From the NCBI GenBank assembly GCA_024697065.1, contig JAILGE010000006.1, positions 1 to 64,000 on the forward strand: a stretch of 64,000 nucleotides of DNA. Reading direction: 5' to 3'. Origin of the DNA: Lachnospiraceae bacterium. GTDB lineage: Bacteria; Bacillota; Clostridia; Lachnospirales; Lachnospiraceae. Under the pieces are notes generated by a model that was not told the origin of the DNA, made no database searches, and saw only the letters and a program-made list of their open reading frames with translations. Below, one piece after another: positions 21,898 through 26,819 of the stretch. Every line of letters begins with the position of its first letter. Within the stretch, counting starts at the first letter, position 1. A program made the position numbers and the translations under genes.

Positions 21898-23364
21898 ATG
21901 TCGAAAAATAATTTAAAACTTCCGGCAGTTGAGATCCGTGAACTCAGAACAAACTCTATCACGGGCTATGATGGAAATGCAAAGGATCTTGTTGAAAAAG
22001 CACACAGCACCGGGCTGAAAGATATAGAACGAGGATTTCAGCAGTGCGCAGGTTGTTCTATAACCAAGGCGGCCTGTATGACGGTTCTTATACAGGATGC
22101 TGCTGTTATAGAGCACGGCCCCATAGGATGTTCAACCTGCCTGCATGATTACAACTTCACCTACATGGTAAACGGAAAACTTCGCGGAGTAGGCGCACCT
22201 ACACAGAGAAAGATCTTCTCAACAAATCTTCAGGAGAAGGATACTGTATACGGCGGCACAAGAAAACTTGAGAAGACGATCCATGATGTATATGAGAGAA
22301 CTCATCCGAATGCGATATTTGTTTTATCAACATGTGCATCGGCCATCATCGGTGATGATATAGAAAGTGTTTGTGATGCGGCTGAAGATGAACTCGGCAT
22401 ACCTATCGTATCGATCGTATGTGAAGGCTTCAGAACAAGAGTATGGACCACAGGTTTTGATGCCGCATATCACGGAATAGCAAGAAAGCTTATCGAGAAA
22501 TCGGATAAGAGAGATGAAACCAAGATCAATGTTATCAATTTCTGGGGCGGAGATCGATTCACCGACTGGTTTGCTCCATTCGGATGCAAGCCCAATTATA
22601 TTACACCATTCTCTACAGTTAATACACTGAAACACTCGGGAGATGCGGCAGCAACGGTTCTGGCCTGCTCAACACTGGGCTCTTACCTGGCAAACGTGCT
22701 TGAGACGGAATTCGGTGTTCCTGAGATCGAGACTGCACCTCCTTACGGAATAGCGCAGACCGACAGATGGTTCAGAGCATTGGGAAAGGTTCTTCATAAA
22801 GAAGATATAGCTGAAAAGGTTATCGCTGAGAAGAAAGAAAAATATATTCCGAAGATCGAAGAATTGAGAGAGAAACTCAAAGGCTTAAAGGCTTATGTAA
22901 CAGGCGGCGCAGCCCACGGGCATGCACTTCTTTCGGTGCTGGGTGAGCTTGGTATCGAAGCGGTAGGAGCATCCATCTTCCATCATGATGCGGTATTTGA
23001 TTCCAAGAGGATCGAGAACGACCAGCTTAAGGAACGTGTCGATGACTTCGGTGATGTTAAGCATTACAGAGTTTGTTCGAAGCAGGAATACGAGCTTGCC
23101 AATGCACTCGGAAAACTTAAGCCGGATATCCTCCTTTCAAGGCACGGCGGCATGACACTTTGGGGTGCTAAATACGGTATACCCAGTCTGCTGGTGGGAG
23201 ACGAACACTTAAGCATGGGATATGAAGGCATCCTGGATTACGGTGAGAGAATACTCGATACCATCGAGAATGATGAGTTTGTAAAGAACCTCCAGAAGCA
23301 TGCGATCAATCCATATACGAAATGGTGGTTGATGCAGAATCCCGATTATTTTTTCGAGAAGTAA
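21898..23364 (+). CDS. Nitrogenase component 1-like protein, alpha (NifD-like) subunit
   Basis: A 488-residue member of the nitrogenase component-1 superfamily. Candidate bridging-cluster cysteines are C50/C53, C78 (HGPIGCSTC) and C146 (LSTCASAIIGDDIESV). C257 (LACSTLGSYLANVLE) aligns with the Cys that holds the active-site cofactor in NifD. The position of the second cofactor ligand (His442 in Azotobacter NifD) appears as Met440 in SMGYEG, with a His three residues before. The extra cysteines (C53, C60, C81) are unusual. It is first of five co-directional genes. The ATG at 21898 has GGGAGG upstream. It is not an ordinary NifD; by gene content it fits group IV nitrogenase-like enzymes. Confidence 0.85.
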   Translation: MSKNNLKLPAVEIRELRTNSITGYDGNAKDLVEKAHSTGLKDIERGFQQCAGCSITKAACMTVLIQDAAVIEHGPIGCSTCLHDYNFTYMVNGKLRGVGAPTQRKIFSTNLQEKDTVYGGTRKLEKTIHDVYERTHPNAIFVLSTCASAIIGDDIESVCDAAEDELGIPIVSIVCEGFRTRVWTTGFDAAYHGIARKLIEKSDKRDETKINVINFWGGDRFTDWFAPFGCKPNYITPFSTVNTLKHSGDAAATVLACSTLGSYLANVLETEFGVPEIETAPPYGIAQTDRWFRALGKVLHKEDIAEKVIAEKKEKYIPKIEELREKLKGLKAYVTGGAAHGHALLSVLGELGIEAVGASIFHHDAVFDSKRIENDQLKERVDDFGDVKHYRVCSKQEYELANALGKLKPDILLSRHGGMTLWGAKYGIPSLLVGDEHLSMGYEGILDYGERILDTIENDEFVKNLQKHAINPYTKWWLMQNPDYFFEK

Positions 23365-23388
23365 ATTAGGAGGTTAGAGAAAACAGTT

Positions 23389-24735
23389 ATGGCTAAATTT
23401 GAAGGATATATAGAACAGCCCAGGTTTTCCTGTGCGATAGGAGCTCTTCAGAGCGTAGTGGCAATTCCAAAAGCGGTACCGATCCTGCATTCCGGACCCG
23501 GCTGCGGAGACATGGTAGCAGGCTTCTTTGAAAGAAGTAAAGGATATGCCGGAGGAGATACATCACCCTGTACCAACTTCACGGAGCGCGATGTCGTATT
23601 CGGCGGAGCTGAGAAATTAAGGAAGATCATAAAGAATTCATATAAGGTTTTGGAGTCCGACTTACAGGTTGTAATGACCGGATGTACAGGTGGTATCGTA
23701 GGTGATGATATAGAGTCTGTGGTACAGGAATTCCAGAATGAAGGGAAGCCCATAGTGGCTGTTGATACACCGGGCTTCAAGTGCAACAACTATGTATCAC
23801 ATTCCAATGTAGTTAAGGCGATCATCGATCAGTATGTTGAACTTCATGAGGATGATAATCCCGCAAGAAGCGAAGCTAATACAGTCAATCTCTTTGCATC
23901 ACTTCCTTATCAGGATCCTTTTTGGAAGGGCAATTTAAGAGAGTATAAGAGGTTACTGGAAGGACTCGGACTCAAGGTACATGTTCTCTGGGGTCCGGAG
24001 TCAGGCGGAGTAAGTGAATGGAGAGAGATACCCAGAGCAAACTTCAATATCCTGGTATCTCCCTGGTACGGCAAGCCTATCGTAGATCACTTAAAGATCA
24101 AATACGGTCAGGATTATACATGGTTCCATTCCATCCCCATCGGAGGAAATGAGACCGAGAAGTTCCTCAGACAGGTATTGGATTTTGCTGTCGAGAAGAA
24201 AGCAGGCATCGATAAGAAGAAAGCGGAGCAGTTTATCAAAAAGGAGATCGATGCTTACTACGAAGAGATAGACAATCTGGCAACATTCCTTCTGGAGTTC
24301 AGATACGGACTTCCCAATCATGCACATATCTTCAGCGATGCGGGATATGTTGTGGGAATATCAAAGTTCCTTCTTCATGAGACAGGTGTAGTGCCTAAGG
24401 AAGTATATGCGATAGACAATACACCTGAAAAGTATCAGCAGGATATACTTGCCGACCTTGCAAGTACCAGTGATAAGAAGGTGATCCCTCTTCGTTTCGA
24501 GCCGGATGCGGGAAAAGCGCAGAATGAAGTGCGTCAGCTCAGTCATAAAGGAAGAGGAATAATCCTGGGTTCCGGATGGGATAAGAATCTTGCAAGAGAG
24601 AAGGGATATGATTTCCTTTCAATCGCAGTTCCGAGTCCTGTAAGACTTGTGATGACAACCAATTATGTCGGATTTTCCGGAGGCTTAAGACTTATTGAAG
24701 ATATATACTTTACAGCCCTCCAGAACTATTCGTAG
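23389..24735 (+). CDS. Nitrogenase component 1-like protein, beta (NifK-like) subunit
   Basis: A 448-residue partner of the preceding subunit, in the same superfamily but shorter than NifK (about 520). Three cysteines expected to hold the bridging iron-sulfur cluster are visible: C15 (PRFSCAIGA), C39 (HSGPGCGDM) and C99 (MTGCTGGIVGDDIESV). No second cofactor-site Cys is evident, consistent with a beta subunit. AGGAGG lies upstream and the gap to the D-like gene is 24 bases. A heterotetramer with the D-like subunit is the expected form. Confidence 0.85.
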   Translation: MAKFEGYIEQPRFSCAIGALQSVVAIPKAVPILHSGPGCGDMVAGFFERSKGYAGGDTSPCTNFTERDVVFGGAEKLRKIIKNSYKVLESDLQVVMTGCTGGIVGDDIESVVQEFQNEGKPIVAVDTPGFKCNNYVSHSNVVKAIIDQYVELHEDDNPARSEANTVNLFASLPYQDPFWKGNLREYKRLLEGLGLKVHVLWGPESGGVSEWREIPRANFNILVSPWYGKPIVDHLKIKYGQDYTWFHSIPIGGNETEKFLRQVLDFAVEKKAGIDKKKAEQFIKKEIDAYYEEIDNLATFLLEFRYGLPNHAHIFSDAGYVVGISKFLLHETGVVPKEVYAIDNTPEKYQQDILADLASTSDKKVIPLRFEPDAGKAQNEVRQLSHKGRGIILGSGWDKNLAREKGYDFLSIAVPSPVRLVMTTNYVGFSGGLRLIEDIYFTALQNYS

Positions 24736-25951: not shown

Positions 25952-25967
25952 AAAAGGAGAGAGAAAA

Positions 25968-26819
25968 ATGAATGAGTCGATCAGACAGGTGGCAATTTAC
26001 GGTAAGGGCGGAATAGGAAAGTCTACCACAACCCAGAATCTTACTGCAGGACTTGCAGAGAGCGGAAAGAAAGTTATGGTTGTAGGCTGTGATCCTAAGG
26101 CAGATTCAACAAGACTTCTGCTTGGTACACTGGCACAGAAGACGGTTCTTGATACCTTAAGAGAAGAAGGCGATGATGTTGAGCTTTCCAGTATCCTTAA
26201 AGAAGGTTTTATGGGAACAAAGTGTGTGGAAAGCGGCGGACCTGAACCCGGTGTAGGCTGCGCAGGACGCGGTATCATCACATCCATAGGACTGTTGGAA
26301 CAGCAGGGCGCTTACACAGATGATCTGGATTATGTATTTTATGATGTACTCGGAGACGTTGTATGTGGCGGATTCGCAATGCCGATGCGTGAAGGTAAGG
26401 CAAAAGAGATCTATATCGTAGCATCAGGTGAGATGATGGCTCTTTATGCAGCAAATAATATTTCAAAAGGTATTGCTAAATATGCAGGTAAAAGCGGAGT
26501 AAGACTCGGTGGTATCATCTGCAACAGCAGAAATGTTGACAGAGAAAAGGATCTTCTCAGAGCTTTTTCCAAGGAACTTGGCACACAGCTCATCTACTTT
26601 GTGCCCAGAAATAATATCGTTCAGAGAGCCGAGATCAATCGTAAGACTGTTATCGAGTATGATCCGACTTCAACACAGGCTGATGAATACAGACAGCTTG
26701 CTAAAGCTATCGATAATAACGATATGTTCACTATACCTACGCCCATGACGCAGGAGCGTCTGGAGCATATCCTTCTTGAGTATGGTCTCATGGATTCTCT
26801 TAAGGATTATGTTATCTGA
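25968..26819 (+). CDS. Nitrogenase reductase-like (NifH-like) iron protein
   Basis: A 283-residue homodimeric Fe protein that would pass electrons, with ATP hydrolysis, to the component-1-like pair. The P-loop is GKGGIGKST (12-20), switch [12 protein letters not shown], and both ligands of the bridging 4Fe-4S cluster are present at Cys98 (GVGCAGRG) and Cys133 (DVVCGGF). Arg101 matches the ADP-ribosylation site of classical NifH, but no draT or draG is seen. AAAAGGAGAG precedes the ATG. Sequence between the cluster loops ([15 protein letters not shown]) is typical of NifH. Confidence 0.9.

Follow-up and report, generated by a model that had tools for sequence, protein, structure and literature searches.

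The window analyzed here is a 64,000-nucleotide stretch of contig JAILGE010000006.1 (positions 1 to 64,000 of the forward strand) from a Lachnospiraceae bacterium (assembly GCA_024697065.1), and it carries a nitrogenase-like operon of five genes at 21898–26819. The operon encodes, in order, a catalytic D subunit resembling that of methylthio-alkane reductase (Mar) (21898–23364; 488 amino acids, aa; PF00148), a MarK-like K subunit (23389–24735; 448 aa; PF00148), a NifX-like protein (24753–25079; 108 aa; PF02579), a NifB-type radical S-adenosylmethionine (SAM) maturase with no fused NifX domain (25076–25951; 291 aa; TIGR01290), and a NifH-type Fe protein (25968–26819; 283 aa; PF00142 and TIGR01287). 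All five genes lie on the + strand and are separated by short gaps, with a 4-nucleotide overlap between the NifX-like and NifB genes. A strong hairpin on the same strand (about 26850–26891; folding z −5.0) followed by a short U run, UUUUGAU, is the likely terminator; it was not among the matches of a simple consensus terminator scan. The family matches of the five genes were far above chance: the NifH scored 459.6 bits against TIGR01287 (cut-off 394.35) and the NifB 283 bits against TIGR01290, which is under the cut-off of 343.65. The gene calls, the Pfam and NCBIfam matches and the hairpin bear out the one-direction operon with terminator described in an earlier sequence-only reading of this DNA. 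The same gene set, including the NifB and NifX-like genes, recurs in relatives, and the operon itself is shared by Lachnospiraceae strain XPB1003, whose D subunit is 98% identical.

The host genome is 2.69 Mb long in 44 contigs and 99.84% complete. A PF00148 profile search of this genome returned four proteins, namely the D and K subunits of the operon and a divergent pair on contig C37, and no NifE or NifN was found in this search. Because the divergent pair is the only other one, the assembly gives no sign of NifEN, which belongs to the minimum nitrogenase gene set, and the absence first noted for the operon holds for the genome. NifB is present as a single copy, the sole other match scoring 23 bits.

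Comparison with solved structures placed both subunits near Mar. The D subunit scored 431 bits against Rhodospirillum rubrum MarD (9FMG/9D9U) and 128 against the best NifD; the K subunit scored 375 bits against MarK and 71 against the best NifK. Ligands were taken from the Mar structure paper (PMC12552129), and their numbers were confirmed on the MarD and MarK sequences used. Cys53, Cys78, and Cys146 of D correspond to the bridging-cluster residues Cys66, Cys91, and Cys158 of MarD. Together with Cys15, Cys39, and Cys99 of K, all six P-cluster cysteines of Mar are present, in agreement with the pattern reported by the sequence-only reading; the three K cysteines occur in 79/79 aligned K rows (window included). 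The cofactor ligands MarD Cys270 and His429 are matched by Cys257 and His416, and Arg415 matches MarD Arg428, which preserves the Arg-His hallmark of the MarD-specific loop. MarD Trp195, Phe199, and His375 are also conserved. The alignment is sound at the cofactor columns, because the NifD rows show their own Val/Gln/His there. In this alignment, window D has no equivalents of NifD Val70, Gln191, and His195, and its Arg-His site does not follow the NifD pattern. A model of D made with AlphaFold2, built from 19 sequences with a mean predicted local distance difference test (pLDDT) score of 76, gave 9FMG as its first structural match with a template modeling (TM) score of 0.83 by query length, while nitrogenase and NifEN chains reached TM 0.64–0.70 among the 50 matches listed. 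Taken together, D and K are almost certainly of the Mar side rather than nitrogenase.

The phylogenetic position of D was determined with a careful bootstrapped tree of 58 rows, which did not include Nfa of Endomicrobium proavitum. Long-branch rows (both Nostoc rows and loci L048, L052, L054, and L058) were dropped from it; they are present in a quick 55-row tree that agrees with it. The tree splits into NifD/NifE (12 rows) and Mar-like D (46 rows) with support of 100/100. R. rubrum MarD forms a clade of eight rows (100/99), and window D falls outside it in a sister clade of 21 rows (100/99) that includes Eubacterium oxidoreducens, Herbinix, Kineothrix, Faecalispora, Ruminococcus albus, Treponema, and a Chloroflexota plasmid. 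The window clade and two more rows make up a set of 23 (88/81), and the MarD and window clades join within 31 rows (100/97). Canonical NifDK, one placement raised by the sequence-only reading, is thereby excluded at 100/100. Its second placement, the Mar clade, applies in part, as D has the Arg-His hallmark of Mar but lies beside the R. rubrum clade instead of inside it, and its broad "other group IV" option is narrowed to a sister of Mar. Pectinatus haikarae carries one D of each clade side by side in tandem, which suggests that the two types have different jobs. At four other loci, namely plasmid pTS2 of Treponema saccharophilum (L183) and L055, L056, and L057, one NifH and one NifB accompany two DK pairs from different clades, an arrangement that looks as though a single reductase served more than one catalytic part.

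The Fe protein has Cys98, Cys133, and the P-loop, as previously described. Its closest solved chain is Clostridium pasteurianum NifH (474 bits); MarH scores 286 bits. In a 47-row tree, window H is among 36 rows with true NifH (100/99), and seven MarH-type rows form a separate group (100/99) without it. It thus exceeds the NCBIfam nifH cut-off and also groups with NifH in the tree. Passing the cut-off is little proof by itself, since proteins of 398–416 bits, four of them MarH-type, also pass. Window-clade D and K are paired with a MarH-type H on the plasmid of Candidatus Chlorohelix allophototropha, a member of Chloroflexota (L182), and in a phylum sample a window-clade D (L255; 52% identity) and a near relative (L256; 46% identity) stand beside an H of MarH-type score. 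These pairings indicate that the Fe protein has changed within the group. In an approximately unbiased (AU) test, a tree grouping the H of Mar-like operons and MarH against true NifH was not rejected (p 0.30), and the claim is therefore limited to an H that stands near NifH and well apart from MarH, whichever way NifH moved.

The ligands of Methanosarcina acetivorans NifB (His43, Cys30, Cys63, Cys129, Cys264, Cys274, and Cys277) were used as the reference set, as reported in PMC7145814. Window NifB has the CxxxCxxC motif at 34/38/41 together with His27, Cys14, Cys112, Cys257, and Cys260, and the equivalents of His43, Cys30, Cys129, Cys274, and Cys277 are kept. The equivalent of Cys264 (K2 cluster) is absent in window NifB and in 110 of the 121 NifB rows (94 distinct sequences, window included) taken from Mar-like loci; its loss is not special, because 7JMA also lacks that residue. 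The relation of MarB to NifB is described differently in two sources, one of which reports all conserved NifB motifs in MarB (PMC12552129) and the other little in common beyond the radical SAM motif (PMC11423573). The NifB of the L182 plasmid groups with nitrogenase NifB, and an O-acetylhomoserine sulfhydrylase gene is nearby. The NifX-like protein is, by its family, a cluster-binding protein and a probable carrier of the NifB product.

The neighborhoods of relatives were analyzed at named loci, the top 80 among the 508 that a single scan found, a choice that favors close kin. Neighboring genes were named by Pfam and NCBIfam on representatives and then counted by fixed score limits. Representatives included CysK and a PatB C–S lyase over the cut-offs, MetI, MetQ, and SsuA- and TauC-like parts under them, and a gene of the O-acetylhomoserine sulfhydrylase family. 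At least one sulfur gene was found at 70 of the 80 loci and at 53/55 of those of at least 12 kb, as well as at 34/45 Mar-like loci of the family, compared with 0/9 nif control loci (16.8–19.9 kb). MetY-family genes stand beside 56 of the 80 relatives by a loose limit and 34 by a strict one, MetI/MetQ flank 23, and an SsuA/TauC-like ATP-binding cassette (ABC) transporter, under the NCBIfam cut-offs, flanks 27. Mar-like and sulfur genes likewise occur together on the annotated plasmids of T. saccharophilum and Ca. Chlorohelix. In relative L074, the operon sits between LysR, a cystathionine enzyme, and CysK on one side and a 184-aa gene, MetN, MetI, and MetQ on the other, and contig C2 of the window's own genome has this type of run without the operon, with identities to L074 of 76% for the cystathionine enzyme, 73% for CysK, and 76% for the 184-aa gene. 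The genome also has five strong PF01053 members, and no ATP sulfurylase was found in it by PF01747. The electron-sink role suggested earlier is unsupported, because the neighbors in relatives point to assimilation.

A LysR-type regulator encoded downstream of the operon (29682–30686, +) is related to LysR genes beside sister operons and has a 96% identical counterpart 3′ of the XPB1003 operon; it may regulate the operon. RNA elements were searched in the window, in five stretches of the same genome around PF01053 genes, and at the loci of six named relatives. Besides tRNAs, the only elements to pass were two TwoAYGGAY RNAs; strain XPB1003 has one of them, and the other is on contig C25 of the genome that contains the window. 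The XPB1003 copy (RF01731; 97 bits; L072:6586–6751) lies on the same strand about 250 nucleotides upstream of the D gene, and the window operon is without it.

From the gene set, the ligands, the clade, the type of Fe protein, and the neighborhoods of relatives, all read directly in sequence, we infer the cluster identity, the reaction, the substrate class, and the carrier role of the NifX-like protein. That the enzyme cuts a C–S bond for sulfur salvage is likely on these grounds, and the C–S compound among the substrates considered by the sequence-only reading is thus the one favored. The fuller reading, in which the operon encodes a NifH-driven, ATP-dependent C–S bond reductase that is a sister of Mar and serves organic-sulfur salvage, is probable. 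In this scheme, NifB would build an [Fe8S9C]-type cluster, probably carried by the NifX-like protein, and DK would bind it directly, with Cys257 and His416 of D as ligands; the use of a NifB-derived cluster by a two-component enzyme without NifEN, as proposed earlier, is supported at the level of sequence. NifH would pass electrons, at the cost of ATP, to the cofactor through an 8Fe bridging cluster held by the cysteines of D and K. A thioether-like substrate would be cut at the cofactor to a hydrocarbon and a thiol or sulfide, and the sulfur may then be fixed into methionine or cysteine by O-acetylhomoserine- and O-acetylserine-using enzymes (MetY, CysK, and the cystathionine enzyme).

Several observations weigh against this scheme. 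First, the equivalent of Cys63 (K1 cluster) is absent in window NifB, as in all 121 NifB rows from Mar-like loci, and is present in 11/11 nif NifB rows, in 7JMA, and in the NifB of the Chloroflexota plasmid. Formation of [Fe8S9C] is not assured, because one K1 cysteine ligand is missing. Second, the D model has pLDDT <50 at the ligand stretches 37–53, 77–84, and 176–184, and therefore is no test of the cofactor site. Third, no sulfur gene stands beside the window operon within about 8 kb upstream and 9 kb downstream; its sulfur link therefore rests on relatives and on the module elsewhere in the genome, where LysR, MetN, MetI, and MetQ of contig C2 share only 35–52% identity with those of L074. 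The RNA search of the window yielded no sulfur-responsive element. Finally, MarD Gln74 and His194 are replaced by Met61 and Val182 in window D, and the Fe protein is of the canonical NifH type and not the MarH type. With one or two presumed substrate-site residues changed and an Fe protein that is not MarH, the activity of Mar is not transferable to this enzyme.

The extent of these replacements was surveyed in 80 D rows. They come from 78 named loci, as D is split into shorter frames at the other two. Arg-His is present in 79/80 rows. At the Gln74/His194 sites, the exact pattern of the window occurs in 49 rows, Thr and Met in 23, and other pairs of Met or Val with Met or Ile in six; the remaining two are a Pectinatus row of the Mar clade and a distant row. 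Among window-clade members checked, His194 is replaced in every one and Gln74 in most, which suggests a substrate unlike that of R. rubrum Mar, and we lean slightly toward such a difference. The strongest competitor, a plain methylthio-alkane reductase acting on the R. rubrum substrates (2-methylthioethanol, dimethyl sulfide, and ethyl methyl sulfide), would hold these changes immaterial. It agrees with the kept ligands and Arg-His hallmark, with the MetY-family genes beside many relatives (56/80 loose, 34/80 strict), which could capture methanethiol, and with early-branching members of the window clade (L038, L039, L040, and the Chlorohelix plasmid), in which Gln74 is retained and His194 is replaced by Val. 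However, a separate clade at 100/99, the Pectinatus tandem with its suggestion of different jobs, the non-MarH Fe protein, and the 78/80 rows with Gln74 changed to Met, Thr, or Val and His194 to Val, Met, or Ile make it unlikely.

Somewhat less probable still is that the enzyme releases sulfite from an isethionate- or taurine-like sulfonate, the reaction proposed for IsrBHDK of Rhodobacter capsulatus. The superfamily can serve sulfonate assimilation, as the isethionate reductase (Isr) shows (PMC11423573), and the SsuA/TauC-like transporter at 27/80 named relatives, though under the cut-offs, would fit such a role. However, IsrD is described as having a single bridging cysteine of the three and no counterpart of Cys275, and IsrB as closer to BciD than to NifB, and window D and window NifB are unlike them in these respects; MetI/MetQ flank 23/80 relatives, and the SsuA-type binding family PF09084 has one weak match of 21.9 bits in the genome.

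A minimal nitrogenase without NifEN, similar to the claimed group IV Endomicrobium system or the NifEN-less Roseiflexus enzyme, is very improbable. The canonical-type NifH, the NifB, and the NifX-like partner are what such an enzyme would have, and sources report iron-molybdenum cofactor (FeMo-co) assembly without NifEN (PMC11573651), claimed N2 fixation by group IV (PMC9147875), and reduction of N2 by NifB and by NifEN bearing a bare L-cluster (PMC13245594). However, D lies outside NifD/NifE, is without the Val/Gln/His residues, and does not show the NifD pattern where Mar has Arg-His, and R. rubrum Mar, whose ligands are the same, is reported to have formed no ammonia from N2 (PMC12552129). 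No NifV-type homocitrate synthase passed its cut-off (152 versus 462.9 bits), a weak test, as 0/14 control genomes passed. N2, also listed as a substrate by the sequence-only reading, is thus disfavored, and nitrogen fixation was set aside on the D tree, the residues, and the gene set. A role of DK as scaffold or maturase for another metalloenzyme has the precedent of NifEN and the company of the assembly proteins X and B, but D retains the cofactor-binding His of the Mar loop, as a catalyst would, and, by reading, no obvious client enzyme stands beside the operon in the window, which leaves this the least probable of the alternatives.

The association of NifH with Mar-side enzymes was examined in 299 genomes of the family, taken as Lachnospiraceae in the wide GTDB sense. 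The NCBI nifH cut-off was exceeded at 48 places in 45 genomes, and all 48 surroundings were examined. Among the 44 places with canonical-type NifH, a Mar-side D was found in the same stretch at 34 and NifD and NifE at nine; one (G076) has no D in its stretch, its Mar-like D lying on other contigs. The other four of the 48 are MarH-type with Mar-like D. The Arg-His hallmark is present in 25 of the 34 adjoining D, absent in eight, whose reaction is less sure, and cut by the contig end in one; the window-clade residue pattern is present in 9/34. In a phylum-wide draw of 398 genomes, this result was not repeated: a Mar-like D was found within 20 kb of 4/67 canonical-type NifH places, two of the four being from the family, and D genes may be missed because at most three D candidates were scored per genome. 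The pairing therefore belongs to this family and near kin. A rumen survey that counted nitrogenase by NifH reported it in 23% of 501 rumen genomes and rumen N2 fixation as negligible (PMC6776011), and in a gut nifH study some clostridial clones were assigned to Cluster III (PMC4995403). If canonical NifH mostly serves Mar-side reductases, this would be a direct explanation of the rumen discrepancy for Lachnospiraceae. These results suggest that a nitrogenase marker gene in gut-type anaerobes can point to sulfur use and not to nitrogen fixation.

A broader proposal can be put forward tentatively, as possible rather than probable: the window clade would be a second NifB-cofactor C–S reductase, with a substrate distinct from that of Mar, widespread in rumen and gut clostridia and treponemes, mostly with true NifH and with a NifB short of one K1 cysteine; most canonical nifH of Lachnospiraceae would be its own or that of Mar-side kin, and part of the "nitrogenase potential" read from gut and rumen nifH would be sulfur salvage. 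The requirements of electron delivery could be studied through a natural Fe-protein swap between nitrogenase and a C–S reductase, and those of cofactor assembly through a NifB that lacks one K1 ligand. If the product is a hydrocarbon, small hydrocarbons in the gut may come from these bacteria.

Other nitrogenase-like loci and neighboring genes were also observed. Directly 3′ of the operon, a 677-aa protein, EAL-type by reading only, is encoded at 26970–29003 and is also kept in strain XPB1003. The divergent pair belongs to a second nitrogenase-like cluster at about 9.1–18.9 kb of contig C37, where a solute-binding protein, a CobW-like GTPase, an ABC ATPase, a Crp-type regulator, NflH, NflD, and NflK follow in order, with an iron/cobalamin-type ABC transporter, by reading only, at the 3′ end. 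Its NflH reaches 329 bits with CfbC and 327 with nifH, each under the cut-off, and the cluster resembles the ATPase-linked NifEN-like loci described by Dos Santos (2012; PMC3464626). Two other loci (L070:1009–3282 and L071:7497–9806) encode single NifH-like/NifD-like fusions of 757 and 769 aa, each followed by a K-like gene.

Among known systems, MarBHDK of R. rubrum (9FMG, 9D9U) shares with the operon the D/K fold and sequence, the six bridging cysteines, the Cys/His ligands, Arg-His, a radical SAM maturase, and, in the operon's relatives, sulfur-gene neighbors; window D differs in its sister clade and changed Gln74 and His194, and the operon in its canonical NifH, NifX-like gene, and NifB without the Cys63-type K1 ligand. 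The Mo-nitrogenase NifHDK of C. pasteurianum provides the closest NifH among solved structures (474 bits), whereas D, K, the catalytic residues, and the lack of NifEN in the genome set the operon apart. IsrBHDK is likewise nitrogenase-like, serves sulfur assimilation, and has a radical SAM partner, but IsrD is reported without two bridging cysteines and the Cys275 equivalent, and IsrB as closest to BciD (PMC11423573). Group IV-A Nfa of E. proavitum and Paenibacillus riograndensis is by description a group IV system and a named possible NifEN-less relative, but NfaH groups with MarH (PMC9147875), a source that also describes group IV copies and MarDK clades in heliobacteria. MarHDK-like genes have further been described near methyltransferase clusters (PMC10418091). 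No paper separating the window clade from Mar or pointing out its NifH was found in the open literature, though one may be in print. The same kind of locus was described by Dos Santos (2012) as Cys275-bearing nitrogenase-like pairs near O-acetylhomoserine sulfhydrylase, with a sulfur role suggested; the pairs were said to lack His442, before the Mar-loop His was known, and the accessible part of that source gives no Mar sister clade, H-type analysis, or function (PMC3464626).

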